The position numbers were made by a program, and so were the translations under genes. Below, in pieces: positions 12,927 through 32,126 of a DNA stretch of 33,196 nucleotides. The stretch's first letter is position 1. Each line of letters opens with the position of its first letter. Under the pieces are notes generated by a model. It saw nothing but the letters and a program-made list of their open reading frames with translations, ran no database searches and had not been told where the DNA came from. This DNA is from a virus, in the IMG/VR virus record IMGVR_UViG_3300010403_000356, positions 1 through 33,196 of that record; one strand, 5' to 3'.

Positions 12927-12935
12927 TTTCAATTG

Positions 12936-13014
12936 CTCACATTGCACGCGCGAGGGCACGATATTTTGAGGGATCAGTCAATGGTTGTTGCCTCGACTCA
13001 CATTGCACGCGCGA
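12936..13014. repeat. Two exact 18-bp direct repeats upstream of the TetR gene
   Basis: CTCACATTGCACGCGCGA occurs at 12936-12953 and 12997-13014, 61 bp apart. One copy is just before the TetR ATG. The other abuts the stop codon of the upstream HTH gene. A TTGACT -35-like element on the minus strand lies between them. They are likely regulator sites, possibly for the TetR protein itself. Confidence 0.6.
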
Positions 13015-16354: not shown

Positions 16355-16966
16355 TTGAACCAGCGCTCAAATCATGGCATCTATCAGCCGGACCAGACCA
16401 TTCGGGAACTGTACCGCAAAGCCATGCGACCAACCCTCAGCCGACGCCACGCGCTTTTCGTCCGGCACTATCGCAAAACAGGCATAGCCGCGCAGGCTTA
16501 CCTCGCCGCCGGCTACAAACCCACAACAAAGAACGCTCTCTATGTGTCAGCCTGCCAACTCCTAAGCCATCCTAATGTGCAACTGCGAATTCAGGAGCTA
16601 GACCGCCAGATGACCCAAAGAACACGCATAACCATCGAGAGTTTGCTGCATGATCTCGCTGAAGACAGAGCGCTTGCTCGAGAGACAAAGCAGGTTTCGG
16701 CCGCGATCGCAGCGACGCAGTTGAGCGCTAAGCTGGTGGGATTGTTGATAGATCGGAAAGAGAGCGGCCAGCCTGGAGACTTCTCCGATCTCACAAGCGC
16801 TGACGAGATACTGGCGCGCGTGCGAGCTGATCTCGGTGACGAGATGGCAGATGCAATCACGCAAGCCCTTGCAAAACAAGCTGATACGCCGGCGGAAACC
16901 AGCATAGATCCCGGGCCAGCGATCGGGCTTGATGCCGAGCGAGACAGCGACGCGACGTTGAACTAG
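16355..16966 (+). CDS. terS: Terminase small subunit
   Basis: The 203-aa product shows the Terminase_2 pattern: LSRRHALFVRHYRKTGIAAQ, AYLAAGYKPTTKNALYVSAC and QLLSHPNVQLRIQELD, an N-terminal DNA-binding HTH followed by helical oligomerisation segments. It selects phage DNA for packaging and recruits the large subunit. The start is uncertain: TTG at 16355 or ATG at 16424 (MRPTLSRR). Unusually, the large terminase gene is almost 11 kb away, beyond an opposing cargo operon. Confidence 0.85.
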   Translation: MNQRSNHGIYQPDQTIRELYRKAMRPTLSRRHALFVRHYRKTGIAAQAYLAAGYKPTTKNALYVSACQLLSHPNVQLRIQELDRQMTQRTRITIESLLHDLAEDRALARETKQVSAAIAATQLSAKLVGLLIDRKESGQPGDFSDLTSADEILARVRADLGDEMADAITQALAKQADTPAETSIDPGPAIGLDAERDSDATLN

Positions 16967-18170: not shown

Positions 18171-18200
18171 CTGGCCCTGTCATGGGGCCAGACTTTTTTT
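18171..18200 (+). terminator. Strong intrinsic terminator between late genes and cargo operon
   Basis: CTGGCCC-TGTCATG-GGGCCAG is followed by AC and seven T. It ends rightward transcription from the small terminase block. The stop codon of the opposing last cargo gene (18180-18182) lies in the loop, so the two transcription units meet here tail to tail. Confidence 0.85.
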
Positions 18201-19487
18201 GCCCTTGCTCGCCCTCAGATTGGCAAACAGGCCGAGGAACAGGAACAGGACGAGCGCGCCGCTGATGCTGCCGTGAGCGAGTCCCAATGTGGATGCGAAC
18301 ATCAGCCCGGACATTGCGAAGATCGAAGCGGCGTTTATCTGGCCACCGATCCCGGACATCAGGGACCAGAGAACGAGCCACATGATGGCGATCCCGGCGA
18401 TCCATCCCAGTTCGATGATTGCCTGCATGAAGATGTTATGCGGCGCGAAGCCGCGCAGGCAAGACATGCGTTGGAAGCTGTTGATGCCGTAGCCGAACCA
18501 GCCAGCGGTTGGCATGAAGTAGAAAGCATCCCGGGCCAGAGTTGTACGGATCTCGACCGACAAATCCATCCGGGTTTCGGCGAGGCAGCTCGGCGGCACT
18601 GCCGGCCTCCCCGACATCTGCCGCGAAAGCCACTCTTCCTTGGTCGCGAGGTCAGCCGCGGAGACCACTTCTGCGACGCTGCCAAGCACGGCGGTTCGCC
18701 GCAGGTTGGCACCGGTTATCATGCCCGCGATCGTCACCATCATGATCACGATCGACAACGTTCGAATCGACCTGAATTCGGGACGTGCAAACGACGTCAG
18801 GACCAGCGCACCGAGCAGGAACACGATCGCCATTGTCGTGAGCCTGACCAGCGCGATTGTGCTGATCGTCATTGATGCGAAAATCAGCACACATACGCAG
18901 ATCGAAAAAACCGATACTGCGCGACGGCCTGACGTGACAAACGAGATCACCAGAAAGCCGCAAGCGAAGGCGAACAGTGTCGCGGCGTGATCGAGCCCCA
19001 TGATGCCGATCTTGTTGTTCCCGGTCACCGCGACCGACAGCAACTGCCAGGCGGATACGGCAGTTGCCATGGTAACGATGGACAGACTGACCCAAAAGGT
19101 TGCGCGTCCTGCCGACTGTGGATCGGGCATGAAACGCGCCGCCACATAGAACGACAGCGAACAGCCGAACAGCGCGAGTTCCTTTAAATCCTCCGGATCG
19201 AAGTTGCGCAGCGAGGAAACCAGCGACGCCGCTACAAACGCCAGGAACAGGTAATCCGGCAGGATCAGCGTCGGCGCACGTCGCGGCCGGGAATTTATCA
19301 GTAGCAGCCCGAGCGGCGCCGCCACCATGCCGGCAGTAGCCAGACTATGCCCGGCCGACCCGGCCATGCCGTAGACGATTGTGATAATGGGAAAAATGAG
19401 TGCTGAAACCGCGAAAAAGGCCGCTGATGCGTTGATCACAGTACCCCCTGCTGCCAATGACGGCCGGGAGCCTAGCATCGCAACCAT
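18180..19487 (-). CDS. O-antigen polymerase/ligase-like membrane protein (Wzy/WaaL family)
   Basis: The 435-aa protein is mostly hydrophobic, with about ten membrane spans and one large periplasmic-type loop (roughly residues 270-350). After the loop comes GWFGYGINSFQRMSCLRGFA followed by PHNIFMQAIIELGWIAGI. This is the G.G...F...HN.F...E.G pattern of the O-antigen ligase/polymerase (Wzy_C) family, with the key His. It would act in the inner membrane, joining repeat units or transferring a glycan to lipid A core or to another acceptor. It is the last gene of the cargo operon and the only one with a gap (26 nt) to its upstream neighbour. Acceptor and linkage unknown. Confidence 0.8.
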   Translation of the reverse strand: MVAMLGSRPSLAAGGTVINASAAFFAVSALIFPIITIVYGMAGSAGHSLATAGMVAAPLGLLLINSRPRRAPTLILPDYLFLAFVAASLVSSLRNFDPEDLKELALFGCSLSFYVAARFMPDPQSAGRATFWVSLSIVTMATAVSAWQLLSVAVTGNNKIGIMGLDHAATLFAFACGFLVISFVTSGRRAVSVFSICVCVLIFASMTISTIALVRLTTMAIVFLLGALVLTSFARPEFRSIRTLSIVIMMVTIAGMITGANLRRTAVLGSVAEVVSAADLATKEEWLSRQMSGRPAVPPSCLAETRMDLSVEIRTTLARDAFYFMPTAGWFGYGINSFQRMSCLRGFAPHNIFMQAIIELGWIAGIAIMWLVLWSLMSGIGGQINAASIFAMSGLMFASTLGLAHGSISGALVLFLFLGLFANLRASKGKKSLAP

Positions 19488-19513
19488 ACAGCGAGCAACA
19501 GCCGATATTCGCC

Positions 19514-20176
19514 TTATGGGCTGCCTGTGGAAACTTTTTGCCGGATGTACGCAACCATCATGCGCAGGTCTTCCGCGTTGAGCGAGAACGCACTGTCCGG
19601 CGTTTCGACGGCGTCGAGCTTGAGGTGGTATTCGACCATCGGGGCACTGGCTGGCGGCACGATATTGCCGTGAGCGGACAGGCCGAGCGGCACCATCTCC
19701 CCACCGTAATCGGTGGCCTGCAGGAGGGTGACGCCGGCGCGCGGCCGCACGCTCATGACGATCGGCTTGCCGGTCTCGCGGACGGCCTTGATGATGTCCC
19801 AGTCGAGCATCTCGAACGCGGAAATCTTGTACCTAGGGCAGTCCAACATCTCGAGGAAGGCGACGTCGAGCGGGTCGAACACGGATGAGAACCAGGCGAT
19901 GTCGACCTCTTTGCATTGATCGATCAGGTGCGGAAACCATGCCTGCGGGGTGTGTACCCGGCGATAGAGGTCGATGAGGTCAGCCTCGCCAAAACTTGTG
20001 GCGGCGAGCTCAAGAACATCGGAACTGGCACCGCGCCGCGCCGCGAGCCGCTCGGGGTCGAAACATTGAAACTTGACCGCATCGGCCCCGGCTTGCTTGG
20101 CGTGCACGATCAGCTCGAGCGCGTTGGCAAGCGATCCGCCATGGTTACCGGAAATCTCTGCGACGATCTCGGTCAT
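19514..20176 (-). CDS. NeuB/PseI-like sugar acid synthase, compact form
   Basis: The 220-aa protein has the NeuB barrel start (VAEISGNHGGSL, GADAVKFQCF) and continues with YKISAFEM, ETGKPIVMS, LSAHGN and VEYHLKLD. Lysines 35 and 117, Ser167/His169 and Glu182/His184 fall where NeuB enzymes hold PEP and the metal. These enzymes condense a 6-carbon sugar with PEP to make 9-carbon nonulosonic acids. The usual length is about 340-350 aa. Here the stretch with the YP motif between the GKP strand and the S.H motif is largely missing, as is the whole C-terminal SAF domain. It is either a specialised minimal member or a decayed enzyme; the retained catalytic positions favour function. Confidence 0.75.
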   Translation of the reverse strand: MTEIVAEISGNHGGSLANALELIVHAKQAGADAVKFQCFDPERLAARRGASSDVLELAATSFGEADLIDLYRRVHTPQAWFPHLIDQCKEVDIAWFSSVFDPLDVAFLEMLDCPRYKISAFEMLDWDIIKAVRETGKPIVMSVRPRAGVTLLQATDYGGEMVPLGLSAHGNIVPPASAPMVEYHLKLDAVETPDSAFSLNAEDLRMMVAYIRQKVSTGSP

Positions 20177-20346
20177 TCGTCGTCTTCCTTCTCTGAATAG
20201 TCGTGATGGAAGCCAATGGCCTGAACGTCGCGCCTTGGATCGCGCAGGCGAGGCGTCAGCGGTCCGTCCTCCGGGATACGATAGGGATTGATCCGTCTGG
20301 GATCGTTCCTCCTGATCGGTCGCGGCTTCATCGGTCGGTCAGCCAT
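20173..20346 (-). CDS. 57-aa Arg/Pro-rich protein coupled between aminotransferase and NeuB-like genes
   Basis: The frame MADRPMKPRPIRRNDPRRIN, then PYRIPEDGPLTPRLRDPRRD, ends in an acidic tail (DYSEKEDDE). The ATG lies inside the end of the DegT gene (19-nt overlap), and the stop overlaps the NeuB-like start (ATGA). The tight coupling argues that it is translated. It is probably disordered, with a basic body and acidic end. No family recognised; it may be a small partner or regulator of the pathway enzymes. Confidence 0.6.
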   Translation of the reverse strand: MADRPMKPRPIRRNDPRRINPYRIPEDGPLTPRLRDPRRDVQAIGFHHDYSEKEDDE

Positions 20347-21446
20347 TTCTCCGCCGCCTTCTTGAACGCCTCTCCGACCTGCCTGATCTGCTCTGTCGTC
20401 AGATCCCACGCGCAATTCTCGAAATAGAGCAGCCGCCGGTCGTGCAGATCCTCCGCCACCGGACACGGCCGCGCGAACTGCGAGAACGCCGGCATGCGAT
20501 ACAGCGGATCGACGTAGCCCTCGACGATCGGCACGCCCTCGGCCCGCAGTGCCGCGCAGAACTCGGCCCGGTTTTTGTCGATCATGAACGGGATCGTGTA
20601 ATAGATGTGGGTGCATCCCTCCATCACCATTGGTGCGCGAAGACCTGGAATCTCGCCGATAGCCGCTATGATCGCTTCGGCCTGCTCGACGCGCCCACCG
20701 ATGATCTCCTTGCCGCGCCGTAGCTGCACCCGCGCGATCGCCGCGCAGACTTCCGGCATCCGCAGGTTCAAGCCGATTCGGTCGCTGACATGCTCTCCAT
20801 GATTGATGAAGGCCCGCATCCGTGCCGCGAGTTCGTCATCGTCGGTCGTGCATACGCCGCCTTCACCGCACTGGATCGGCTTGTGGATGTTGAGCGACCA
20901 GCAGCCGATGTGGCCGATGGTCCCGGCATACTTGCCGTTCTCCATCGCGAACGGTGATTGAGCGTTGTCCTCGATCAACTTCCATCCGCGCATGTCCGCC
21001 ATGGCCCGCGCCTTGTGCAATGAGGCCGGGTGTCCGAACAGGTTAGTGATCACCATGGCCTTCGTGGCCTTTATTTCATCGCTCCAAAACGGCCCGGCGA
21101 GACTGAAGGTCAACGGATCGACGTCTGCGAACGTGATATCTGCCCCCAAGAATGCGGGTGCCGCGGCTGTCGCTGACATAGTGAAAGGAGTGGTGATCAC
21201 ATTGGTATCCATCGAGATGTCGACAGCCTCGCACGCCGCAAGCAACGCGCTAGTCGCCGAGTTGCAGGCGATGGCATGCTTGACCCCGAACGTCTCGCAC
21301 CACGCATCCTCAAGCGCGCGCACAGAGAAGCCGCCGCGTTCTTGCCCGGCGAGGTAGCCAGAGAGCGGCCTCGTCACAACAGCGCCAGCCGCGGCGATCA
21401 TTTCTTCTTCGCCGATGGAGTTGAACGGCTTGATAGGCCCGATCAT
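20328..21446 (-). CDS. DegT/DnrJ/EryC1 sugar aminotransferase (PseC-like role)
   Basis: The 372-aa protein follows the family throughout: GYLAGQERGGFSVRALEDAW, CNSATSALLAACEAV, VITTPFTMSATAAAPAFLGA, LIEDNAQSPF (Asp160 binds the PLP ring) and SLNIHKPIQCGEGG (Lys189 forms the Schiff base). Such enzymes convert nucleotide-linked 4-keto sugars to amino sugars. With the neighbouring PseB-like dehydratase it would form the PseB-PseC pair that makes a 4-amino-4,6-dideoxy sugar. It overlaps the upstream methyltransferase by 4 nt. Confidence 0.9.
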   Translation of the reverse strand: MIGPIKPFNSIGEEEMIAAAGAVVTRPLSGYLAGQERGGFSVRALEDAWCETFGVKHAIACNSATSALLAACEAVDISMDTNVITTPFTMSATAAAPAFLGADITFADVDPLTFSLAGPFWSDEIKATKAMVITNLFGHPASLHKARAMADMRGWKLIEDNAQSPFAMENGKYAGTIGHIGCWSLNIHKPIQCGEGGVCTTDDDELAARMRAFINHGEHVSDRIGLNLRMPEVCAAIARVQLRRGKEIIGGRVEQAEAIIAAIGEIPGLRAPMVMEGCTHIYYTIPFMIDKNRAEFCAALRAEGVPIVEGYVDPLYRMPAFSQFARPCPVAEDLHDRRLLYFENCAWDLTTEQIRQVGEAFKKAAEKWLTDR

Positions 21447-22258
21447 AGCAAGTCATCCAGTTGGCGCAGCACGAACATGAAGTTCGGTGAGCAGGCGTAA
21501 TACTGTCCCAGCGAGGGGAGTTGCGCCGCGATGGCGTTGATCGGGTGGTTGTAGTCGGGCTCGATCCCCTGATCCTTGCAGAGCTTGGCATAGATCACGC
21601 GCGACGCGATGTAATACAGGTTGCCGATGTTTTCGACGTGCTCGATCTCAAAAAGATCGCCGCCAGCATTGGCCATGAATTCGGTGAACTCTTTCTGCGG
21701 AAGATACTTGTTGTGCCATCGCGCCTCGATAGGATCAAGGTCGAGCCTGGCGCGCAGGATGTTTAGCGAGTTGAGGCCTGCCTCGGTGTTCTCGACCAGG
21801 ATCAGCCTGCCGTTTGGCGCGAGCATCTTGAGCATTTCCATGATGCCCGCCTTCTGCTCCTCCCATGTCGCCAGGTTGATCAGGCAGCGCGTGCTCAAAA
21901 CGATGTCGAATTTCTGCCCGCGCAGGTTCTTGTTGCGCGACAGGGAAAGTACGTTGCCGTGGAAATACTCCACGTTCGGGATCACGGCCTTGTTCGCCTC
22001 TGATATCATCGGCTCGCTGTAATCGACCCCGGTGATCATCGCCTCCGGAAACTTCTTTCCTATTTTCACGGTCGAATATCCGTTGCCGCAGCCGACGTCG
22101 AGAATCGTCTCACGCCTCTTTATGTTGTCGATCACGCGAAGGATGCTGTCGATCTCGAGGGTGCGGTAGTGGTGATCCGGTGCCGTGGCCAGATCGGAAG
22201 CGCCGTGAGCCAGCGCCTGATCATCCCAGAATGCCTTCGTCTTGTCTTTCACGGTCAT
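21443..22258 (-). CDS. SAM-dependent methyltransferase (sugar cluster)
   Basis: The 271-aa class I methyltransferase has motif I ILDVGCGNGYSTVKIG at about residue 52, MITGVDYSEPM as motif II and VLSTRCLINLATWEEQK as the motif IV region. The C-terminal half has an extra helical segment (KEFTEFMANAGGDLFEIEHV) suited to substrate binding. The substrate is probably the sugar or its amino group, judged from position only. Both ends overlap neighbours by 4 nt. Confidence 0.8.
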   Translation of the reverse strand: MTVKDKTKAFWDDQALAHGASDLATAPDHHYRTLEIDSILRVIDNIKRRETILDVGCGNGYSTVKIGKKFPEAMITGVDYSEPMISEANKAVIPNVEYFHGNVLSLSRNKNLRGQKFDIVLSTRCLINLATWEEQKAGIMEMLKMLAPNGRLILVENTEAGLNSLNILRARLDLDPIEARWHNKYLPQKEFTEFMANAGGDLFEIEHVENIGNLYYIASRVIYAKLCKDQGIEPDYNHPINAIAAQLPSLGQYYACSPNFMFVLRQLDDLL

Positions 22259-23112
22259 GCCAGTTGCTCCCGCAATTCTGCCACCGTCATCCGGCGCGCC
22301 TTATCGCTGCTGTTGCCCGGTCCCATCGACTCATGCCTCTTTTCCCATTCCGGCAGCCCGCGCACATCCATCTTGGCACCCATGGCCTCGGCAAGATCAC
22401 TGAGGCGATAGGCGGGTAGGGTAGGAATTTCGATCTCGCCTCCGACCATATGCATCGACGTATTGAACACGAGGCTGACAGCTTCATCCATCGTCATAAA
22501 AAACCGCGTGCATTCCGGATCGGTCACGGGGACAGTATCGCTTGTCTCCAGCATCTTGCGCCACGTCGGAACTACCGAACCGGTCGAATTCCAAACGTTG
22601 CCGTACCGGACCACGGAGAAGCGCGGTCCGTTCCAACCGCGGGTGTTGTTCGCGGCGAGAAACAGGGACTCGGCGAACGCCTTGCTCGTTCCATAGGGAC
22701 TGATCGGCTCGTGGGCCTTGTCAGTTGAAAGCGCAACGACGCGACCCACATGGGCATCGGTTGCCGCCTCGATGACGTTTGCGGCACCGTCGATGTTCGT
22801 CTTCTTCACTTCGAGCGGATTGTAAGCTCCGACTTCGATGCGCTTCAGAGCGGCCGCATGAACGACGATCTCGATTCCATCCATCGCACGCTTCAGCCGG
22901 TCGCGGTCGCGCACATCTCCGATGAAATAGCGCATGCGATGTCGCGCCGTCGGATGTTCGGCTTCCAGTTCGCGCCGCAGTTCGGCCTGCCGATGTTCCG
23001 AACGAGAATAGATCACAATCCGCTGCGGCACGGTGTCGGTTATGCCGAGAAGATATTTGGCAAACGCCGTGCCGAACGCGCCGCTGCCCCCTGTAATCAA
23101 TACCGACTTCAC
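22255..23112 (-). CDS. PseB/FlaA1-type NDP-sugar dehydratase/epimerase
   Basis: The 285-aa short-chain dehydrogenase-fold protein begins MKSVLITGGSGAFGTAFAKY (NAD(P)-binding GxxGxxG). It carries ALSTDKAHEPISPYGTSKAF with Thr130-Asp131-Lys132 and Tyr140-x3-Lys144, as in the PseB/FlaA1/CapD group. These enzymes turn UDP-GlcNAc into a 4-keto-6-deoxy sugar, often with C5 inversion. FVIGD-like (YFIGDVRD) and HAAALKRIEVGAYNP segments are typical. It is shorter than PseB (about 330 aa) at the C-terminus. It likely makes the first committed intermediate of the cluster. Confidence 0.88.
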   Translation of the reverse strand: MKSVLITGGSGAFGTAFAKYLLGITDTVPQRIVIYSRSEHRQAELRRELEAEHPTARHRMRYFIGDVRDRDRLKRAMDGIEIVVHAAALKRIEVGAYNPLEVKKTNIDGAANVIEAATDAHVGRVVALSTDKAHEPISPYGTSKAFAESLFLAANNTRGWNGPRFSVVRYGNVWNSTGSVVPTWRKMLETSDTVPVTDPECTRFFMTMDEAVSLVFNTSMHMVGGEIEIPTLPAYRLSDLAEAMGAKMDVRGLPEWEKRHESMGPGNSSDKARRMTVAELREQLA

Positions 23113-25124
23113 GACGCCCTCACCATGGGTGCAACGGTCGCGCCGGCCAGCCGCTCGGCGATGTCGCCACTGTCGATGGAATCGCGGATGATGCCGAGGG
23201 TGTGGTCATAGCTTTTCAGGATGCGCTTGACCTCGCTCGGACCGTGCGCCGCACACACATTGTTGCTCGCTGCGATCAATGTGCCACTGGCGATCATCTC
23301 CTTGCGGAACAGCGCCGCGATCTGATCGTCACGGAACTTGATCCGCAGGAACGAGAGAACGCCATGAAGCTTGACGATGTCCTCCGAGATTCCGTGCTGT
23401 TTTGCGAGGCCCCAGAAGCCGGTCAGGATTTGCTTGCCGGTCTCGCGCAGTGTCGCAACGACGTTGTCGCGCTCCATCTTCTTGATCGTGGCGATCGATG
23501 CCGCGAGTGAAAGCGTCTCACCGAACATGGTTCCGCTGTAGAAAATGTTATCCGGCGGTTCGAAGCGCTTCATGATGTCCTTTCGGCCAACGATGGCGGA
23601 TAACGGCATGCCGTTCGCCATCGCCTTGCCGAACGTCGCCAGATCGGGCGTGACGCCGTACATCGCCTGCGCGCCGCCCAAGTGATAGCGGAAACCGGTG
23701 ATGACCTCGTCGAAGATCAGAATGGTGCCGTTGCGGTCGCACTGCTCTCGAAGATGGCGGAGCAAGGGCGCACCGCATTCTGGCTCAATGATGATGGCCG
23801 CATATTCGCAAGGACCACCGAAACCAAGACGTAGCGAGTACGCGTCCTCCATGCTGATGCGCGTGGTCAACTTCCGAATGTCCTTGGGAACGCCGAGGTT
23901 CCGCTCGACGCTCCAATCTTGCCAGCCGTGGTAGCCGCCGCAGATCAGGACGCGGTCCCGGCCGGTGAACGCGCGAGCCAGCCTTATCGCGGCCGACGTG
24001 ACGTCTGTACCGCTTTTGCCGAACCGGACGGCTTCGGCGCACGGGATGATGCGGCAGAGCGTTTCCGCGAGTTCGGCTTCGAGTTCAGTCGCAAGGGAAA
24101 AGGAGATACCGGATGCAAGTTGCCGGCGGACTGCCAAGTCAACATCCGGATCGCGATATCCAAGTATGTTTGGCAGCAGCGCAGCGACCATATCAACGTA
24201 CTCGTTCCCGTCGATGTCCCAGACGAGGCCTCCATCTCCATGGGAAAGGAAAAGAGGGCTGGGCTGCGGGTACTGGAGGTGGCTTTTGCTGAACGTTTGC
24301 GCGGCGAGCGGGATGACTTCGCTGGCTTTTTTGAACTGCGCTTGCGACCTTTCGTAGCTGCGGGCATAGATCGGCTCCTCGGCGAGAGCGTCGAAGTAAC
24401 GCTCGTTCATGATGGCGTTGGCGTTGAGCTTGCGGATGTCGGGATTGGCATCAAGGATGTCCAGGATGTCGATCTGCGACGGAGGTTCATTCCACGGCCA
24501 GTAGACCGCCACATTCTTGCAGAATTCGTAATCGGCGGTGGTATCGAGGACCCATCGTTCATCCCGCAACCCGGGAATCGGATTGATCACCGTCTCGGCC
24601 GGGAAGCGGGAGCGGTTGCGCCCGATCCATGTGGTGACGCAGTCCCGATCGATCGGCCTCGTCGCCTCGGCATCTGCCGCCATCAGGGCTTCATAGGTGA
24701 AGGCCTCAACGTCGAGACCGTCAGGATAGGTACGAGGACTGACATTCGAGCAGTAGGCAGCGCCAGTCTGCTTCTGAAGGCGAACAACGGCGCCGATGAC
24801 TTGCGGATCAAGGAGCGGGCAATCTCCCGTGATCCTCAAAAGTACATCGGCGCCGCTCGCGTTGGCGCATCCGACGAAGCGCGACAGCACATCCGTCTCA
24901 GACCCGCGCCAACAATGGACGGCGTTATCATCGCACCATTGCGCGATAACGTCGTCTTGATCCAACGTGGAAGTAGCGACCCATACGGCATCGACACCAG
25001 GAGCGGCCTCACAGGCGCGCACGCACCAAGCCAGCACCGGTCGGCCGCCGAGGTCCATTAAGACCTTCCCGGGCAGACGGGTCGATCCCATCCTCGCCTG
25101 AATTACCGCAACCACTTTGGTCAT
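23109..25124 (-). CDS. Fusion: SpsF-type cytidylyltransferase plus class III aminotransferase
   Basis: The 671-aa protein has two enzymes. Residues 1-235 are an SpsF/acylneuraminate cytidylyltransferase (VIQARMGSTRLPGKVL; LLRITGDCPLLDP; YPDGLDVEAF). Residues 260-655 are a glutamate-1-semialdehyde-type class III aminotransferase (GNEYVDMVAALLPNILGY; FGKSGTDVTSAAIRLAR; ILIFDEVITGFR with Asp472; ATFGKAMANGMP with PLP Lys500). The first domain would load CMP on a sugar acid; the second transfers or moves an amino group. From memory, such fusions occur in bacterial surface-sugar and flagellin-glycosylation clusters. It overlaps the genes before and after by 4 nt. Confidence 0.9.
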   Translation of the reverse strand: MTKVVAVIQARMGSTRLPGKVLMDLGGRPVLAWCVRACEAAPGVDAVWVATSTLDQDDVIAQWCDDNAVHCWRGSETDVLSRFVGCANASGADVLLRITGDCPLLDPQVIGAVVRLQKQTGAAYCSNVSPRTYPDGLDVEAFTYEALMAADAEATRPIDRDCVTTWIGRNRSRFPAETVINPIPGLRDERWVLDTTADYEFCKNVAVYWPWNEPPSQIDILDILDANPDIRKLNANAIMNERYFDALAEEPIYARSYERSQAQFKKASEVIPLAAQTFSKSHLQYPQPSPLFLSHGDGGLVWDIDGNEYVDMVAALLPNILGYRDPDVDLAVRRQLASGISFSLATELEAELAETLCRIIPCAEAVRFGKSGTDVTSAAIRLARAFTGRDRVLICGGYHGWQDWSVERNLGVPKDIRKLTTRISMEDAYSLRLGFGGPCEYAAIIIEPECGAPLLRHLREQCDRNGTILIFDEVITGFRYHLGGAQAMYGVTPDLATFGKAMANGMPLSAIVGRKDIMKRFEPPDNIFYSGTMFGETLSLAASIATIKKMERDNVVATLRETGKQILTGFWGLAKQHGISEDIVKLHGVLSFLRIKFRDDQIAALFRKEMIASGTLIAASNNVCAAHGPSEVKRILKSYDHTLGIIRDSIDSGDIAERLAGATVAPMVRAS

Positions 25125-25963
25125 AGAATTTCAGCCTTTTTTCTGACGTCGAGCAGCACCCTCAGCGTCGCAAGGCCATCGTGGCCTGAAGCTCCCGGCG
25201 CGAACACTCCGTTGATGCGGTCGATGAATGCGCGCATCTCGTTTAGGTAGTCGTCGTCGTATGATCCCGGTGCCTGCGTGGCTTCGGTTCCGAGCGACAT
25301 CCGCCGCGCGTCGATGTCGACGCCGATGTTCATTTTCTCTCCGGCGATCCAGAATTCGCGGATGCGATGAGGTGTCGCATGATCCAGCAGAAACGTGGAA
25401 CGCGTACCGCTGTCGTGCTGCAGGATGAAGTTTGCGGACTCTGGGGTCTCGCTCGAGACCACACACTTCGCCGGTCCGAAGAGATAAAGCGCAAGATCGA
25501 CCTCATGCGCTCCGGTGTTGAGGACCACGCCGTCGCTGGTGTATTTCTCGGTCGTGTGGGCGCAAATGAAGTTCGCCCACAACGGCTCGCCGATCTCTCC
25601 AGCGCCAAGACATTGCTTCACTCGCTGAATGCAAGGATGCAGGCGCAGATTGTTGCCCATCATGACGACAAGGGACTTGTCGTCGGCTGTCTGCAGCAGC
25701 TTCGGTAGCGTGCCAATGTTGGCGGCGATTGGCTTCTCGGCCAAGACATGCTTGCCGCGCTCGATGCAGCCACGGAGTGCCTGCTCGTGAAACATCGTCG
25801 GCGACGCCACCACGACCGCCTCGCACTCCTCGTAGATGTTACGTTCGAACTTCACATCGCGCTTGTTTGCGGGATCGTAGACCAGCACGTCATGCCCGAG
25901 AGTCTTGAGATTGCGCGCATGGCGACTGCCGATTGACCCGTGCCCGACCACACCGAACTTCAT
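25121..25963 (-). CDS. Gfo/Idh/MocA-family NAD(P) sugar oxidoreductase
   Basis: The 280-aa protein starts MKFGVVGHGSIGSRHARNLK (Rossmann GxGxxG at residues 7-12). It contains the signature HVLAEKPIA (Glu76-Lys77-Pro78) and TGAHEVDLAL (His153, Asp156), which places catalytic residues in the C-terminal sheet domain. Family members oxidise or reduce a ring hydroxyl of sugars and sugar nucleotides. It is shorter than usual (about 330 aa). In this operon it could create the keto group used by one of the aminotransferases. Confidence 0.88.
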   Translation of the reverse strand: MKFGVVGHGSIGSRHARNLKTLGHDVLVYDPANKRDVKFERNIYEECEAVVVASPTMFHEQALRGCIERGKHVLAEKPIAANIGTLPKLLQTADDKSLVVMMGNNLRLHPCIQRVKQCLGAGEIGEPLWANFICAHTTEKYTSDGVVLNTGAHEVDLALYLFGPAKCVVSSETPESANFILQHDSGTRSTFLLDHATPHRIREFWIAGEKMNIGVDIDARRMSLGTEATQAPGSYDDDYLNEMRAFIDRINGVFAPGASGHDGLATLRVLLDVRKKAEIL

Positions 25964-26565
25964 GGCCGCACCGGGATCGTTGTAGTGGCGGACTTCTTCA
26001 GCACGGTGACCATCTCGTCGTCGTTAACAATCGCGCGGGTTACCAGATGGTAAATCGGATTGCCGAGCCACAGATTGGCGAAGTCAAAATGATAGGAGAG
26101 GATGCCGTCGCGATGCTCGTAGTGGCGCGCGAACGGCTGGGCGGTGGCAGCGAAGTCATGGATGATCAGATGACCGCCGGCTACCAGCACCGAATCTCCT
26201 TCGGCCGCTATTCGCAGCCATTCGGACGGGTCGGCAAGGTATAGGCAGAAGCCGTAGATTACGAGATCAAATGGACCCGGCACGGCGAGGCTTGCGGCCG
26301 ATGCCTGCACCACGGGAATTCGCTTCTCCGCGGCTTCAAGCGCGGCCTGTCGGCTCGGTTCGACTCCGAACACTTCACATCCAAACCTGTCGCGAAGCTT
26401 CGCAAGCCGCCAGCCGTTCGAGCATCCAACTTCCAGCACGCGCTTGGGCTTGATGCCAGTGGCTATGACCGCGTTCCAAACTGGGTCTCGTTCGCCAAGC
26501 TTGTCGCGATTCCTCGAAAACCACGCATCGCCTTCCGAATTGAGAAACACGTCGGCCTGTCTCAT
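25960..26565 (-). CDS. SAM-dependent methyltransferase, small sugar-cluster type
   Basis: The 201-aa protein begins MRQADVFLNSEGDAWFSRNR, then motif I VLEVGCSNGWRLAKL, EVFGVEPSRQ, and FDLVIYGFCLYLADPSEWL. Class I methyltransferases with this 'GDAWF.RN' start commonly lie in surface-sugar and flagellin-glycosylation clusters (from memory). It probably methylates the cluster's sugar. It is the second methyltransferase in the operon, so two methylated positions or two substrates are likely. Confidence 0.8.
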   Translation of the reverse strand: MRQADVFLNSEGDAWFSRNRDKLGERDPVWNAVIATGIKPKRVLEVGCSNGWRLAKLRDRFGCEVFGVEPSRQAALEAAEKRIPVVQASAASLAVPGPFDLVIYGFCLYLADPSEWLRIAAEGDSVLVAGGHLIIHDFAATAQPFARHYEHRDGILSYHFDFANLWLGNPIYHLVTRAIVNDDEMVTVLKKSATTTIPVRP

Positions 26566-26831
26566 TTCGCACTCTCTTTGAGGCGCGCGGCTCTCCGATT
26601 ACGGATTTGCCGCCGCTCGTTCCATTCGCTAATCCACATGATCGGAAACACGATGACCATTACGACAAGCGAAAATGCAAACAGACCGACAACGAACATT
26701 ATCGGCCAGCCGAGCAGCCAACCGAATGTCCAAGCTGAGGACCAATCAAATTGCGCGCCCACGAATAGCGCATGAAGCATCGCCCCAATGCCGAGATAGA
26801 TCGCAAGTCCGATGAGTGCGAATAGCCTCAC
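26562..26831 (-). CDS. Small membrane protein in cargo operon, 89 aa
   Basis: MRLFALIGLAIYLGIGAMLH and a second span (WLLGWPIMFVVGLFAFSLVV, MVIVFPIMW) indicate two membrane helices. A basic cytoplasmic tail follows (NERRQIRNRRAARLKESAK). Both ends overlap neighbours by 4 nt. It does not resemble a flippase. Function unknown. Confidence 0.7.
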   Translation of the reverse strand: MRLFALIGLAIYLGIGAMLHALFVGAQFDWSSAWTFGWLLGWPIMFVVGLFAFSLVVMVIVFPIMWISEWNERRQIRNRRAARLKESAK

Positions 26832-27016
26832 TTCGCCAAGTCCTTCAGCAGGTCTGAGATGTTGGAGTCATTGGCATTGATGGCCGAGAGAACCTTCTTT
26901 GTCTGTTTGGGGGCCTTCTCAATCGCGATCTCGACCAACTGCATCCAGAGTACGTTGTTGTTTGCCCTCATCGAGGTGATCATCCCTATGATCTCGCGCT
27001 CGCGTTTGGTGGTCAT
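26828..27016 (-). CDS. Hypothetical 62-aa helical protein in cargo operon
   Basis: The start ATGA overlaps the GNAT stop, and its own stop overlaps the membrane-protein start. The sequence MTTKREREIIGMITSMRANN, NVLWMQLVEIAIEKAPKQTK and DSNISDLLKDLAK suggests three helices. From memory, short proteins of this kind lie beside methyltransferases in sugar clusters, but no function can be assigned. Confidence 0.65.
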   Translation of the reverse strand: MTTKREREIIGMITSMRANNNVLWMQLVEIAIEKAPKQTKKVLSAINANDSNISDLLKDLAK

Positions 27017-27528
27017 CGCATCCTCCCGAATAGCAGTGCCGACACCGGCGCGCCGTCGATCAAAAAATGATTCAACAGTTCGCCTTCCTGCTTGAAGCCG
27101 CTGCCCTGGATAATCTTCACCATGGCGAGGTTGCTGCGCGCGCAGCCGGCCTCCAGCTTGCGAATGTTGCCGCCATCCTTGTCGAGCAGCCATCCGCATG
27201 CTGCCTTCCATGCCTCTCCAGCGTAGCCTTTGCCCCAGAACGCGGACTCGCCGATCATGATGCCGACATCGGATACGTTGTTCGGATCGTCGTGCGTCGC
27301 GCTCAAATTACCGATGTGGTTGCCGCTGTCGGCGAGATAGATGCCCCACAAATGGGAGCGGCCGACGAAAGAGTTGATGTACCGGACCTGCGACGACAGC
27401 GTGTGCGTCTGATGCCGCTGCTGCGAATAACGGACGACGTCTCGGTCGAGCAGCCAGCCGATGTTGCGCGACGTGGCCTTGGTGAGCGGACGCAGGGTCA
27501 AGCGGTTCGTTGAGATTGACGGCGTCAC
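27013..27528 (-). CDS. GNAT N-acetyltransferase (PseH/RimJ-like)
   Basis: With a GTG start at 27528, whose GTGA overlaps the upstream stop, the protein is 171 aa. It begins (M)TPSISTNRLTLRPLTKATS, the usual RimJ/PseH-type start. A longer ATG start at 27591 would run deep into the upstream gene. Motif A is visible as GIMIGESAFWGKGYAGEAWK, with LEAGCARSNLAMVKIIQGSG as motif B, GF ending the fold. PseH acetylates the 4-amino group in the pseudaminic pathway. With the PseB- and PseC-like enzymes here, a sugar N-acetylation role is a reasonable inference. Confidence 0.82.
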   Translation of the reverse strand: MTPSISTNRLTLRPLTKATSRNIGWLLDRDVVRYSQQRHQTHTLSSQVRYINSFVGRSHLWGIYLADSGNHIGNLSATHDDPNNVSDVGIMIGESAFWGKGYAGEAWKAACGWLLDKDGGNIRKLEAGCARSNLAMVKIIQGSGFKQEGELLNHFLIDGAPVSALLFGRMR

Positions 27529-27683
27529 CGGAGGCGCTCCAACAAGTGATCGATCAGCTTTAACTGCCGCTCGGCCGTCGCGCGCGCCCATGCAGCACCG
27601 GCACCGTAGTCGCCCGCGCGTCGCATCTCTTCCAACTGCGCGATGGCTTCCTTGCGGATGGCGACCATTTCATCGCGGTTCAT
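27525..27683 (-). CDS. Hypothetical 52-aa protein, second gene of cargo operon
   Basis: The chosen start MNRDEMVAIRKEAIAQLEEM overlaps the end of the ribbon-helix-helix gene by 14 nt. The frame continues upstream in non-protein-like sequence, so the short form is preferred. The product is a charged helical protein ending AERQLKLIDHLLERLR. It may partner the upstream regulator, like a small antitoxin/toxin or co-regulator pair, but nothing proves this. Confidence 0.6.
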   Translation of the reverse strand: MNRDEMVAIRKEAIAQLEEMRRAGDYGAGAAWARATAERQLKLIDHLLERLR

Positions 27684-27831
27684 CGGTAGGCTCCTTTTCG
27701 CGCTGATACTTCTCCAGCAGCAAACCGGCGAGATTGGATACTGACCGCTTTTCCTCACGGGCCAGTTCCTCGACGCGTTCCTTTGCGGATGTTTCGAGCG
27801 TGATCCGCAGGTGGATAGATTCGGTTGCCAT
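27670..27831 (-). CDS. Ribbon-helix-helix DNA-binding protein, 53 aa
   Basis: The product reads MATESIHLRITLETSAKERV, EELAREEKRSVSNLAGLLLE, KYQREKEPTDEPR. An N-terminal beta ribbon (IHLRITL) followed by two helices with 'RSVSNLAGLLLEKY' is the Arc/CopG (RHH) pattern. It is the first gene of the cargo operon and probably regulates it. Repeats in the 70-bp region upstream fit an RHH operator. No Shine-Dalgarno is visible before the ATG. Confidence 0.75.
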   Translation of the reverse strand: MATESIHLRITLETSAKERVEELAREEKRSVSNLAGLLLEKYQREKEPTDEPR

Positions 27832-27837
27832 GTCGTG

Positions 27838-27889
27838 GACAAGAAGGAACTGATTTGAACTCTCTTGTCAATGGAATGAGCGATAGTTC
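27838..27889 (-). promoter_or_regulatory. Control region of cargo operon and large terminase
   Basis: An inverted repeat GACAAGA/TCTTGTC (27838-27844, 27863-27869) encloses direct repeats GAACT at 27847 and 27857 (10 bp apart); an inverse copy AGTTC lies at 27885-27889. A minus-strand TTGACA (27871-27866) could be the -35 of the cargo operon. The matching -10 (TCCTTC) is poor, and the start would be nearly leaderless. Ribbon-helix-helix proteins often bind such helically phased direct repeats. Confidence 0.45.
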
Positions 27890-27900
27890 ACAAAATAGAT

Positions 27901-29583
27901 GTGGACGCCTATGTTGCGGCCATGAACGTCTCTCAAAGCGCCCTCGTCACGCTCGCGAAGGCCGCCAAGCGCATCAAGGAAATCCGTGAGGCCGAAAGGC
28001 TCGAGGATTCGTTCTACGAATTCGTCAAAGCCGCGTGGCACGTGTTCGACCCGGCCGATTTCGTCGGAAATTGGCACCTTGAAGACCTCTGCGACCATCT
28101 CGAAGCGGTCGCGCGCGGCTATGCGAGCCGACTTTTGATCAACGTGCCGCCCCGAACAGCCAAAACGAACATCACGTCGATATGTTTTGTCGCATGGGTA
28201 TGGGCGCAGCGCGAAAAAGGGCCGCTGATGGGCCCGCAGGTCTCGTTTTTCTACGCCTCATATGCCGAACGGCTCGCGCTCGAGCACTCATTGAAGTGTC
28301 GCCGCCTGATCGAATCGCGCTGGTATCAAAAACATTGGGGATCGCGCTTCAAATTGATGGCTGACCGCAACACGGCGAGCCATTTCGAGAACGACAAGGG
28401 CGGATACCGCATGGCGTCGTCGGTTGACGCCCGCGCGACGGGCTATGGCGCCGATCTCCTCGTCGCCGACGACCCCCATCTGGTCAAAGAGGCCGAATCC
28501 GAACTGGTGCGAGAGAGCGTCGTGCGCTGGTGGTCGGAAACGATGCCGTCCCGCCTCAACAATCGACAGACCGGCGCGATGATCGTGGTGATGCAGCGCG
28601 TCCATGAGGGTGATTTGGCCGGCCACATCCTCGCGAACGACCTCGGATACGTCCATTTCTGCGTTCCCATGTCCTACGTGCCGTGCCAGCACGTAAATGT
28701 TTGGAACGGCGACAAAATCGAGACCGTAATCGGCGAAGAAGTCGATGAAATCGATGAGGAAAGCGTCTTTTGGGTCGATCGCCGACGGGAAGACGGCGAT
28801 TTGCTCTGGCCGGAGCGATTTCCGGCCAGTGAAGTCGCCAAAATCGAGAAGGAGCTCGGGCCATACGCCTATGCCGGGCAGTTTCAGCAGGACCCGGCGC
28901 CGCGCGGCGGCGGCATCATCCGAACGGAGTGGTGGCAGCCTTGGGATAAGGAGACCGCGGAGGAAAACGGCTGCGTTCCCGAGAAATATCCGGGCTTCGA
29001 ATACATTCTGGCCGCGCTCGACACCGCGTTGACGGAAAAAGAGGAAAACGATCCGAGCGCCATGACGATTTGGGGGATCTGGCGGGATCCGAATGGAAAC
29101 CCGAACATCTTTCTGATGTACGCATGGGCTGAGCGCTACCAGATCCATGATCTGGCCCGGCGCGTCGGTGAAGATTGCAAGCGGTTCAACGTCGATCGCG
29201 TCATCATCGAAAACAAAGCGGCCGGCCACAGTGTTTCCCAGGAACTGGTGAGGCTATTCGGTCCATCGGAGTTTGGTATTGAACTCGTCGACCCGCGGAC
29301 CGGGTTCATCCGCAGCCCGGACAAAGTCGCCCGCCTGCAAAGCGTCGTCTACCTGTTTAGCGAGGGGCTGGTGTACGCGCCCGATAAATCGTGGGCGGAT
29401 GACGTGATCAAGCAGTGCGCGACCGTCCCGCGATCGGTCCATGACGATTTGGCCGACACCGTAAGTCTGGCGTTGCTCTATCTGCGCCGCTCCAACCTGA
29501 TCATCCGGCGCGAGGAGCAGGCACTCGAACTGGAGGATGAGACCAAATACCGGCCCCGGAGCGGTTCGCTTTACCCCGTCTAG
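27901..29583 (+). CDS. terL: Terminase large subunit
   Basis: In the 560-aa protein, Walker A is VPPRTAKT (residues 82-89) and Walker B is DLLVADDPH. The coupling strand MIVVMQRVHEGDLAGHIL is typical of TerL ATPases. The C-terminal nuclease domain has an ILAALDTA acidic strand, VDRVIIENKAAG and an acidic HDDLADTVSLALLYL near the end. It pumps DNA into the prohead and cuts it. The start is uncertain: GTG at 27901 or ATG at 27922 (MNVSQSALV); neither has a clear ribosome-binding site. The gene is separated from small terminase by the cargo operon and a terminator, so it needs its own promoter or read-through. Confidence 0.92.
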   Translation: MDAYVAAMNVSQSALVTLAKAAKRIKEIREAERLEDSFYEFVKAAWHVFDPADFVGNWHLEDLCDHLEAVARGYASRLLINVPPRTAKTNITSICFVAWVWAQREKGPLMGPQVSFFYASYAERLALEHSLKCRRLIESRWYQKHWGSRFKLMADRNTASHFENDKGGYRMASSVDARATGYGADLLVADDPHLVKEAESELVRESVVRWWSETMPSRLNNRQTGAMIVVMQRVHEGDLAGHILANDLGYVHFCVPMSYVPCQHVNVWNGDKIETVIGEEVDEIDEESVFWVDRRREDGDLLWPERFPASEVAKIEKELGPYAYAGQFQQDPAPRGGGIIRTEWWQPWDKETAEENGCVPEKYPGFEYILAALDTALTEKEENDPSAMTIWGIWRDPNGNPNIFLMYAWAERYQIHDLARRVGEDCKRFNVDRVIIENKAAGHSVSQELVRLFGPSEFGIELVDPRTGFIRSPDKVARLQSVVYLFSEGLVYAPDKSWADDVIKQCATVPRSVHDDLADTVSLALLYLRRSNLIIRREEQALELEDETKYRPRSGSLYPV

Positions 29584-29642: not shown

Positions 29643-32126
29643 ATGGCCGCGCCGATCAGCCTTCGCATAGTCGATCCCGAGAAGCCACAGGACGAACTCG
29701 CCCCGGCGACGTTCGACCTCGGGGAGGGCGATTCGGCGGTCAAGATCAACGCCGACGGTGTGGCCGTTATCGAGAACGCCGACGGCAGCGTCACCTACGA
29801 TGAAAATCCCGATCTCAGTACGACGGAACCGGACGGCGCGGATTTTTATCGCAACATCGCCAAAGAGATAGAAGATACGGAACTGACCCAGATCGCATCC
29901 GAACTGTTGACCGGGATCGAACTGGATCAGCAGTCCCGGAAGGACTGGATGCAGACGCGCGCCACCGGGATCAGGCTGCTCGGGCTGAAGATCGAGGAGC
30001 CACGCGGCGACATGGGCGCTTCGTCTGCGCCGCTGGAGGGGATGTCGACCATCCGTCACCCGCTGCTGCTCGAAGCCACGATCCGCTTTCAGGCGACTGC
30101 GCGCGGCGAATTGCTGCCTTCTTCCGGTCCGGTGAAGGTCCGCAATGACCTGCCGATGCCGCCGGATGTGCCGGCCCCGCCGCCCGGCGCGCCGCCCGCG
30201 CCAGAGGCCCCGCCGCAGATGGGCGACAATGGCGGTCCGCCGCTCGCGCCCGAAGGGCAGGCGATGGACGATCTCGGCGACGCGCTCGAAAAGGACATGA
30301 ACCATTACCTAACGGTGACGGCGACTGAATACGTTCCGGACACCGATCGGATGCTGTTCTACGTCGGCTTCGGCGGTGACGGCTTCAAGAAGGTCTACAA
30401 CTGCCCGCTGCGCCGGCGCCCGGTGTCGGAATCGGTGGATGCCGAGGACATCATCATATCGAACGCCGCGACCGACATGCGTAACTGCGGCCGGGTCACG
30501 CACCGCATCAAGATGCGTCCGTCGATCCTCAAGCGGATGCAGATCATCGGCGCCTACCGCGACGTGGCACTGACTGCGCCGAACCCGTCCACGCAGACCA
30601 CGGCACCGGAAAAGGAAAAGGCAGAAGTCGGCGGCTACAAGGTGCAGCCGATGCAGCCAAAGGACGCCGAGTACGAGGTCTATGAGTGCTATTGCGAGCT
30701 CGACATCGCTAAATTCGCGCCGAAGCAGTTCAAGGACAAGGGCCTGCCGCTTCCGTATGTGGTGACGCTTGAAAAGGACAGCCGCCAGGTGCTGGCCGTC
30801 CGCCGGAATTGGGATGAAGACGACGAGCAGGCGCTCGCCAAGCAATTCTTCGTCCAGTTCCCGTTCATTCGCGGCCTCGGCTTCTACGGTCTCGGCCTGA
30901 TCCATATTCTCGGCAACGTGACGATGGCGCTGACCGCGATCTGGCGGATCATGATCGACAACGGCATGTTCGCGAACTTCCCGGGCTTCCTGTTCGCCAA
31001 GGCCGCCGGCCGGCAGAATACGAACCAGATACGGGTCCCACCCGGCGGCGGTTTCCCGGTCGACGTGCCTCCCGGCATGAGCATCCAGAATGCGTTCATG
31101 CCGCTTCCGTACAAGGAAACCGGCGCGGCGTTCACCGGGCTGGCCGCGCATATCGAGGAAGTCGGCCAGCGCCTCGGTCAGACCGCCGACGTCAATATCG
31201 GCGAAGGCAAACAGGACATGCCGGTCGGCACCACGATGGCGCTGATCGAGCAGGCCACCAAGATCATGGACTCCGTCCACAAGCGGCTGCACGCCGCGCA
31301 GATGGAGGAGTTCGGACTGTTGAAAGAGCGTTTCCGCGAAGACCCGGAGGCATTCTGGCGCCACAACAAGAAGACCCATCGTCCGGCTCGGAAATGGACC
31401 GAGGAGCAGTTCCGGGAGGCACTGGAGCAGCGCGAACTCGTCCCCGTCGCCGATCCGAACAACCCGACGAGTCTGCACCGCATTGCCAAGGCCACCATCA
31501 TCGACATGCTGGTGAGCAAATATCCGATGGACATGGACAAGCGCGCCGCACTGAAGCGGATCATGCGCATTGCGGACATCGACGCTGATGGGCTGATGAC
31601 GGCGCAGACCCAGCAGCCGCCTCCGGACCCGCGGATGGAAGCGATCAAGGCCAAGGCGATGGCCGAGCAGATGAAGGCAGAGATCGCCAAGGCCAAGGTG
31701 CTGATCCAGGCCCAGACCTCGCAGATGACCTTCGCCGACAAGGAGAAGGAGCGCGAGTTCAAGAAGGGTATTGCCGCTTTCGAGGCCCATCTCGAGCAAC
31801 TTCGCGTGCATGCCGACCTGATGCTCAGTCAGGACGAGATCAAGCGCGCCAACATGCAGACGCACGCGGATATCGCCGGCCAGAACGCCGAACTCACGCA
31901 CAACATCATCTCGAGCGAAACCAGCCATCGCATGGAGATGCAGCAGGACGCGGATCGGCACGCTCAGCAGATGGAAGCCGATCGCGCGCGTACTGCACTG
32001 CAACTCAGCACCGAGGAGGCGCGCGGCCAGCAGCAACTGGAATTGGCCCGCGAGAAGAACGACGCCCAGATCGAGCAGCAACGGAAGATGAATGCGCTGC
32101 GACCGAAACCGAAAGGGGACAAGTGA
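29643..32126 (+). CDS. Large portal protein with C-terminal coiled coil, 827 aa
   Basis: A GGAAAGG ribosome-binding site precedes ATG 29643. Early residues include a Pro-rich loop (VPAPPPGAPPAPEAPPQ, then MGDNGGPPL) at about 175-200. The core (DRMLFYVGFGGDGFKKVYNC, AEDIIISNAATDMRNCGRVT, GLGLIHILGNVTMALTAIWR) matches the long portal proteins of podovirus-like phages from memory. Residues 655-820 are Gln/Glu/Lys/Ala-rich and strongly coiled-coil (barrel-type extension). It forms the dodecameric DNA gate at one capsid vertex, partner of the large terminase encoded just upstream. Family level is certain enough; exact subtype is not. Confidence 0.85.
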   Translation: MAAPISLRIVDPEKPQDELAPATFDLGEGDSAVKINADGVAVIENADGSVTYDENPDLSTTEPDGADFYRNIAKEIEDTELTQIASELLTGIELDQQSRKDWMQTRATGIRLLGLKIEEPRGDMGASSAPLEGMSTIRHPLLLEATIRFQATARGELLPSSGPVKVRNDLPMPPDVPAPPPGAPPAPEAPPQMGDNGGPPLAPEGQAMDDLGDALEKDMNHYLTVTATEYVPDTDRMLFYVGFGGDGFKKVYNCPLRRRPVSESVDAEDIIISNAATDMRNCGRVTHRIKMRPSILKRMQIIGAYRDVALTAPNPSTQTTAPEKEKAEVGGYKVQPMQPKDAEYEVYECYCELDIAKFAPKQFKDKGLPLPYVVTLEKDSRQVLAVRRNWDEDDEQALAKQFFVQFPFIRGLGFYGLGLIHILGNVTMALTAIWRIMIDNGMFANFPGFLFAKAAGRQNTNQIRVPPGGGFPVDVPPGMSIQNAFMPLPYKETGAAFTGLAAHIEEVGQRLGQTADVNIGEGKQDMPVGTTMALIEQATKIMDSVHKRLHAAQMEEFGLLKERFREDPEAFWRHNKKTHRPARKWTEEQFREALEQRELVPVADPNNPTSLHRIAKATIIDMLVSKYPMDMDKRAALKRIMRIADIDADGLMTAQTQQPPPDPRMEAIKAKAMAEQMKAEIAKAKVLIQAQTSQMTFADKEKEREFKKGIAAFEAHLEQLRVHADLMLSQDEIKRANMQTHADIAGQNAELTHNIISSETSHRMEMQQDADRHAQQMEADRARTALQLSTEEARGQQQLELAREKNDAQIEQQRKMNALRPKPKGDK

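Follow-up and report, generated by a model that had tools for sequence, protein, structure and literature searches.

A nonulosonic acid-type sugar operon in a soil phage lineage and a candidate transferase among its virion genes

Nonulosonic acids (NulOs) are surface sugars of cells, and the question addressed here is what a phage would do with genes for making one. The question is raised by the IMG/VR virus record IMGVR_UViG_3300010403_000356, a metagenomic fragment of 33,196 bases that was analysed over its whole length (hereafter the window), in which an operon of 13 open reading frames (ORFs) occupies about 9.7 kb of the minus strand (27842-18180) between the genes of the small (terS) and large (terL) terminase subunits, both located on the plus strand. 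A sequence-only reading had placed NulO-type sugar synthesis inside this packaging region, and the enzyme families and motifs described below support it: PseB-, DegT-, GNAT-, NeuB- and cytidylyltransferase-type signatures, two methyltransferases, a Gfo/Idh oxidoreductase and a Wzy-like gene were all found at the place and on the strand given there, between flanks matched by PHROG 51 (terS) and PHROG 38 (terL). Three details had to be revised: 13 ORFs were counted in place of 14 genes, the NeuB protein proved to be strongly shortened, and the cytidylyltransferase, although present, turned out to be the N-terminal domain of a 671-amino-acid (aa) aminotransferase fusion and not a separate gene.

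Our best explanation is that a pseudaminic-acid-like NulO, activated with cytidine monophosphate (CMP), would be made in the infected cell, and that a phage protein family termed F32 would transfer this CMP-NulO sugar, most likely to a virion protein. Virion glycosylation is read as the simplest account because a CMP-NulO pathway is accompanied by a protein of sialyltransferase/Maf fold among the virion genes. We infer the sugar chemistry from the enzyme families, and likewise the virion as the acceptor of F32; on gene content and predicted structures, the whole chain from phage pathway through F32 to the virion is given an even chance of being correct, and the NulO pathway taken by itself is rated higher.

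Conservation of the operon and its origin

Relatives of the window were gathered by IMG/VR scans using TerL, the fusion and NeuB. A core of GNAT, a first methyltransferase (MT1), Gfo, fusion, PseB, DegT and NeuB genes recurs in them, mostly in the same order, on the strand opposite to terL and immediately upstream. Optional members are a second methyltransferase (MT2), another GNAT, and a pair formed by an ATP-grasp protein and a PIG-L deacetylase. Looking for the same operon between terS and terL of related viruses, a check proposed in the sequence-only reading, gave a positive result in 38 distinct viral TerL contexts. Within the TerL group of the window (65-98% identity), no contig that extends at least 1 kb upstream of terL lacks the first of the conserved operon genes, and one contig with a TerL 98% identical to that of the window (L002) repeats the operon junction. 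In a tree built from 74 TerL sequences (operon present in 38, absent from 15, not judgeable in 21), the operon is confined to one part of the tree and 3 changes suffice to explain its presence, compared to 13.4 for shuffled labels; the three rows without it that fall within this part have longer end branches (0.62-0.83). Misassembly, which had been named as a finding that would overturn the whole proposal, and chance are excluded because the same block occurs in dozens of independent contigs. The unusual place of the operon, pointed out earlier, is confirmed, and by these comparisons the operon is a fixed component of one group of uncultivated soil phages and not one-off cargo.

In a tree of the fusion, a branch with support 100 separates the phage proteins from all others, and the closest cellular fusions belong to Hyphomicrobiaceae/Hyphomicrobiales loci (L043, L047) and to a metagenome-assembled genome labelled Planctomycetota. 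The operon was probably acquired once from an alphaproteobacterium, a Hyphomicrobiales-like donor, and passed on by vertical descent, a history unlike that of recent cargo; a Hyphomicrobiales-like host is likewise suggested. Among named phages, megablast with the operon gave no match, and protein searches found none with the fusion and only remote relatives of NeuB and TerL. A TerL search in plasmids gave remote matches only. The pelagiphage HTVC023P turned up in the TerL search, and a paper on pelagiphage auxiliary genes makes no mention of sialic acid or polysaccharide genes.

The putative pathway and its miniature synthase

The PseB protein aligns to the Helicobacter pylori enzyme 2gn4 (E 2.1e-69), the STDKA and Y-x3-K motifs of which line up with it. 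The fusion matches a solved cytidylyltransferase (6oew) at its N terminus and glutamate-1-semialdehyde aminomutases at its C terminus. For the PseH-type step, a GNAT is present in the window, without a match to any PseH model, and a second GNAT is found in five relatives (L005, L034, L037, L039, L040). The same enzyme set is clustered on chromosomes of alphaproteobacteria, together with the uridine diphosphate (UDP)-sugar hydrolase PseG. In the phages, on the other hand, PseG (TIGR03590) was detected in 0 of 23 contigs, some possibly incomplete, compared to both of two bacterial controls, and the NCBIfam scores all fall below the equivalog cut-offs (302 of 408 bits for PseB, 144 of 423.5 for PseC, 149 of 340 for PseI). 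The earlier description of the operon as complete goes too far in view of PseG and these cut-offs. Judged by its families, the operon seems to work like a CMP-pseudaminic acid pathway, but since the cut-offs are missed and PseG was not found, it is not filed as a member.

A plausible route can be written as follows. UDP-N-acetylglucosamine (UDP-GlcNAc) would be dehydrated and epimerised by PseB, and the product would be aminated by the DegT enzyme and N-acylated by the GNAT. After release of UDP by an enzyme not seen among the phage genes, the freed sugar would be condensed with phosphoenolpyruvate by the miniature PseI-type synthase, and the resulting NulO would be activated with CTP by the N-terminal domain of the fusion. 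Decoration of the sugar is the probable role of the Gfo/Idh oxidoreductase, the methyltransferases and the second aminotransferase domain. One relative (G004) carries a HAD phosphatase of polynucleotide-kinase type between DegT and NeuB (L032:19303-19728), which might be a source of the absent hydrolase step. In other relatives, a PIG-L deacetylase and an ATP-grasp ligase are inserted between PseB and DegT (L005:1894-3380, L040, L144, L161), which suggests N-acyl variants of the sugar.

The synthase itself is reduced to 220 aa. By alignment it has lost the SAF domain and the stretches following strands 5, 6 and 7, and barrel helices 5-7 are missing from its model, while the eight strands and the invariant residues are retained. 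Residues such as E7, K35, K117, S167, H169, E182 and H184 are invariant between it and its full-length relatives, and H169 and H184 would be the metal ligands, as in Neisseria meningitidis NeuB. An AlphaFold2 model, the alignment for which included full-length proteins and may bias it towards a barrel, has a mean confidence (pLDDT) of 88.7 and a pTM of 0.88, with eight strands and helices 1-4 and 8 present, and the nearest solved structure to it is Campylobacter jejuni PseI (8h2c, Z 24.4). The ratio of nonsynonymous to synonymous substitution (Ka/Ks) is about 0.16-0.29 against four phages, with Ks close to saturation, and the short gene is therefore maintained under purifying selection.

Short NeuB proteins of about 210-230 aa are encoded by the window and by five of its relatives (L034, L032, L037, L039, L144), and longer ones of 334-359 aa in relatives such as L041 and L042, that of L041 comprising barrel and SAF domain. 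The NeuB of L161 is long, yet the TerL of the same contig (L224) sits among short-NeuB phages; therefore shortening or replacement would have occurred more than once. Short NeuB proteins (215-265 aa) also occur in the phage contigs L146, L147, L148, L149, L163 and L170, which have PseB and separate cytidylyltransferase genes; in some of them the short NeuB gene is encoded in the same direction as a terL-like gene and a short way ahead of it.

F32 and the destination of the sugar

Neither within the operon nor downstream of NeuB was a glycosyltransferase recognised on reading the genes or with PF01973. The candidate transferase is F32, a family without Pfam or PHROG match whose members number about 280-360 aa and have a coiled coil at the C terminus, exemplified by L031:16479-17561 on contig G004. 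Its gene belongs to the virion gene cluster: in L320 it follows the major head protein, and in G004, G782 and G783 it precedes the tail genes and shares one set of conserved neighbours. In one contig, the F32 frame holds one in-frame TGA (G827:8303-9025), due to sequencing error, decay or recoding.

The AlphaFold2 core of F32 (residues 58-223, mostly above pLDDT 90) matches the sialyltransferase CstII (1ro7, Z 11.1), Maf of Magnetospirillum (5mu5, Z 11.0), CstI and the Pasteurella multocida sialyltransferase, the overlap with 1ro7 and 5mu5 covering about 150 residues at a root-mean-square deviation of 2.9-3.4; a family absent from the list of structural matches is not thereby excluded. F32 is thus predicted to have the GT42 sialyltransferase/Maf fold, and the model makes it a candidate NulO transferase. 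Maf enzymes attach nonulosonic acids to flagellin, their central domain resembles Cst-II, and relatives of CstII and Maf use CMP-sialic acid or CMP-NulO (PMC11339370).

F32 is also linked to the NulO genes by its distribution. Fourteen of the 15 operon contigs of at least 60 kb contain it, and all eight F32 contigs above 70 kb that were tested also have the fusion, while neither F32 nor NeuB is present in any of five operon-less TerL relatives of at least 40 kb. Contigs with distant F32 proteins (G791, G793, G801) lack the fusion and have NeuB. Fourteen contigs recovered solely via NeuB, a few of which nearly duplicate others, encode F32 on the strand of NeuB at a distance of 1.5-3.2 kb from it, in some cases directly ahead of terL. 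L154 and L178 belong to phages of other terminase and portal families and show the order PseB, DegT, cytidylyltransferase, methyltransferase, His_biosynth protein, GNAT, NeuB, then terS (named by PHROG in L178), F32, terL and portal; the association of F32 with NulO genes therefore appears to recur in unrelated genomes. The arrangement of same-strand NulO genes directly ahead of terS, followed by F32, terL and portal and including a HisF-like protein, spans L154:4052-17507 and L178:3964-18275 and is also seen in L175. A broader proposal, which we hold at somewhat below even confidence, is that NulO coats the virions of many phages, belonging to two or more unrelated lineages, through the action of largely phage-encoded enzymes that include the miniature synthase and F32.

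The main rival to virion glycosylation is that host enzymes or F32 attach the CMP-NulO to lipopolysaccharide, capsule or flagellin, which would change receptors and block superinfection during lysogeny or infection; we regard it as a real possibility of clearly lesser probability. Running opposite to the late genes, the operon is probably a separate transcription unit, its copy in the window ends in the Wzy-like gene and an HTH repressor-like gene occurs in the same fragment, relatives carry tyrosine integrases (G004, G783) or outer-membrane beta-barrel genes (G003, G782), and there are precedents such as Kapi1 (PMC8787464). Against this stand the near-fixed and not patchy presence of the module in its lineage and the position of F32 among virion genes, or between terS and terL in another lineage. 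Lysogenic conversion of lipopolysaccharide, capsule or flagellin, the leading proposal of the sequence-only reading, was given up in that role on three grounds: no glycosyltransferase or flippase was recognised in the conserved operon, no relative of the Wzy-like gene was found in a scan of viral contigs, and nearly 800 Rhizobiales genomes yielded no close prophage, a weak negative with no positive control (no match at E 1e-90 among 392 Xanthobacteraceae genomes, and a single one, at E 2e-137, among 397 from the order). Since the scan yielded no viral relative of the Wzy-like gene, which is also not part of the conserved core, the phage of the window may have gained a conversion function of its own through it.

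A different target, be it the DNA of the phage, a small molecule for secretion or a decoy to counter host defence, is improbable in our view: the extra aminotransferase, the Gfo/Idh oxidoreductase and the methyltransferases could make a non-glycan product, and glycan hypermodification of phage DNA is known (cited in PMC12619734), but no DNA-hypermodification genes were recognised near the operon, the cytidylyltransferase, the NulO synthase and the sialyltransferase-fold protein indicate glycoconjugates, and the cellular relatives are located in NulO clusters. Least credible of all is that recently captured, decaying host genes, a chimeric contig or a NeuB pseudogene are being seen. NeuB is short by about a third and the record is a 33-kb metagenomic fragment, but the many TerL contexts, the repeated junction in L002, the presence of the short NeuB in at least five diverged phages and its conserved residues and confident fold all speak against it; pseudogene, misassembly and recent capture were set aside as contradicted, to the extent that sequence allows, by Ka/Ks, the TerL tree and the fusion tree.

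Virion glycosylation has to be weighed against observations of its own. Besides the antisense orientation of the operon, the Wzy-like gene in the window and the failure to find PseG, these concern F32. Thiamin and pterin pyrophosphokinases (TPK/HPPK) share its fold class (Z 8-10). In a profile search of solved structures a CMP-Neu5Ac sialyltransferase came first at an E-value of only 0.56, a weak match that falls on the sialyltransferase motif TS..M..A..G..I.L.GID, and with PF01973 (Maf/MptE-like) no hit reached E 0.1 in the 13 phage records scanned, F32 contigs among them. One operon contig of at least 60 kb (G830, 61 kb) is without F32, and the Fisher test on contigs of at least 40 kb (p 0.016) is indicative only, the contigs having been picked via these genes. 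The window shows no F32 either; the fragment ends before the region that holds it in relatives, and by their example its own phage probably has one.

Gene layout and relation to known systems

The features of the window are collected in Table 1. Junctions within the operon are mostly 4-base overlaps, the sole gap being the 26 bases from NeuB to the Wzy-like gene, whose Wzy_C score is below the cut-off of 31.7 bits and for whose product a crude scan gave 8 hydrophobic segments. The 62-aa protein is conserved though at varying operon positions, for example ahead of DegT in L042. The distance from terS to the operon end is 1.2 kb in the window, whereas in G004 tail genes and F32 lie between them, which reflects either a differing genome order or a permuted record. 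In two relatives an outer-membrane beta-barrel gene, possibly a surface-changing one, lies between operon and terS and antisense to the operon (L035:1869-2723, L039:16870-17703). A TetR-type regulator gene with relatives in G003 and G004 is located in the early region of the window (12381-12959).

Table 1. Features of the window, with the operon genes listed in their order outward from terL.
Feature	Position	Strand	Matches and relatives
Portal protein (flank)	29643..32126	+	PHROG 1216, E 4.6e-24
terL, large terminase (flank)	27901..29583	+	PHROG 38, E 4.8e-88
105-aa ORF, first of operon	27525..27842	-	Relatives in several contigs
GNAT acetyltransferase, conserved operon gene closest to terL	27013..27525 (start possible at 27591)	-	Pfam Acetyltransf_3, E 1.2e-18
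62-aa small protein	26828..27016	-	Relatives in L005, L034, L037, L039, L042 and others; Pfam gives no function
89-aa protein, two hydrophobic segments	26562..26831	-	PHROG 944 membrane protein, weak match
Methyltransferase MT1, conserved	25960..26565	-	Pfam Methyltransf_25; found in most operon contigs
Gfo/Idh/MocA oxidoreductase, 280 aa	25121..25963	-	Pfam GFO_IDH_MocA; nearest NCBIfam UDP-GlcNAc 3-dehydrogenase, sub-threshold
671-aa fusion, SpsF/PseF-type cytidylyltransferase and glutamate-1-semialdehyde-type aminotransferase	23109..25124	-	Pfam CTP_transf_3, Aminotran_3
PseB-type UDP-GlcNAc 4,6-dehydratase, 285 aa, shortened C terminus	22255..23112	-	Pfam Polysacc_synt_2, E 1.4e-74
Methyltransferase MT2	21443..22258	-	Pfam Methyltransf_25; relatives in L003, L041, L164, L261, L282, L289
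DegT/PseC-type sugar aminotransferase, 372 aa	20328..21446	-	Pfam DegT, E 3e-62; best NCBIfam PseC, 144 bits
57-aa ORF overlapping DegT and NeuB genes	20173..20346	-	Similar to frame in L005/L032
Miniature NeuB/PseI-type nonulosonate synthase, 220 aa	19514..20176	-	Pfam NeuB, E 1.3e-32; best NCBIfam PseI
Wzy/O-antigen-ligase-like multi-pass membrane protein, 435 aa, outside conserved operon	18180..19487	-	Pfam Wzy_C, 28.7 bits
terS, small terminase (flank)	16355..16966	+	PHROG 51, E 1.8e-17

Phage virion glycosylation, phage O-antigen conversion and NulO pathways are each already known; the literature searched contained no account of a NulO pathway encoded by a phage or of virions that carry NulO. 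A NulO pathway conserved within a phage lineage, together with a candidate transferase, would broaden the known chemistry of virions and could account for a shielding from receptors or defences of the host; the case would be the more novel should virions prove to bear the sugar. F32, if a transferase, would give a name to a family unannotated by current libraries, and the miniature NeuB, which is under selection although few helices accompany its eight strands, would be a natural test of a minimal working barrel enzyme.

The closest comparison is with the bacterial CMP-pseudaminic acid pathway (PseB-C-H-G-I-F), as PseB-, PseC-, GNAT-, PseI- and cytidylyltransferase-type enzymes lie in one operon, the nearest NCBIfam models are PseB, PseC and PseI, and the best structural match is C. 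jejuni PseI. The phage version differs from it in the missing PseG, the shortened PseI and PseB, scores short of the cut-offs, the cytidylyltransferase fused to a glutamate-1-semialdehyde-type aminotransferase, and the extra Gfo/Idh and methyltransferases. Chromosomal NulO clusters of Hyphomicrobiales and Rhodospirillales share the fusion, PseB, DegT and NeuB, with PIG-L, MT1 and Gfo present at one locus or another, but their enzymes are full length and PseG was present in both of those tested. The core of F32 shares fold (Z about 11) and motif with Maf NulO transferases and the GT42 enzyme CstII, from which it differs in its size and coiled coil, in being missed by PF01973 and in its place in phage virion clusters. 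A precedent for glycosylated virions is provided by mycobacteriophages, which bear glycans on capsid and tail tube subunits (PMC12619734, citing Freeman 2023). Finally, the seroconverting phages Kapi1, P22, Sf6 and D3 show that glycan genes are borne by temperate phages (PMC8787464), but these alter the host O-antigen via acetylases or glucosylation cassettes, whereas the operon phages conserve what appears to be a whole activated-sugar pathway, with a candidate transferase among their virion genes.

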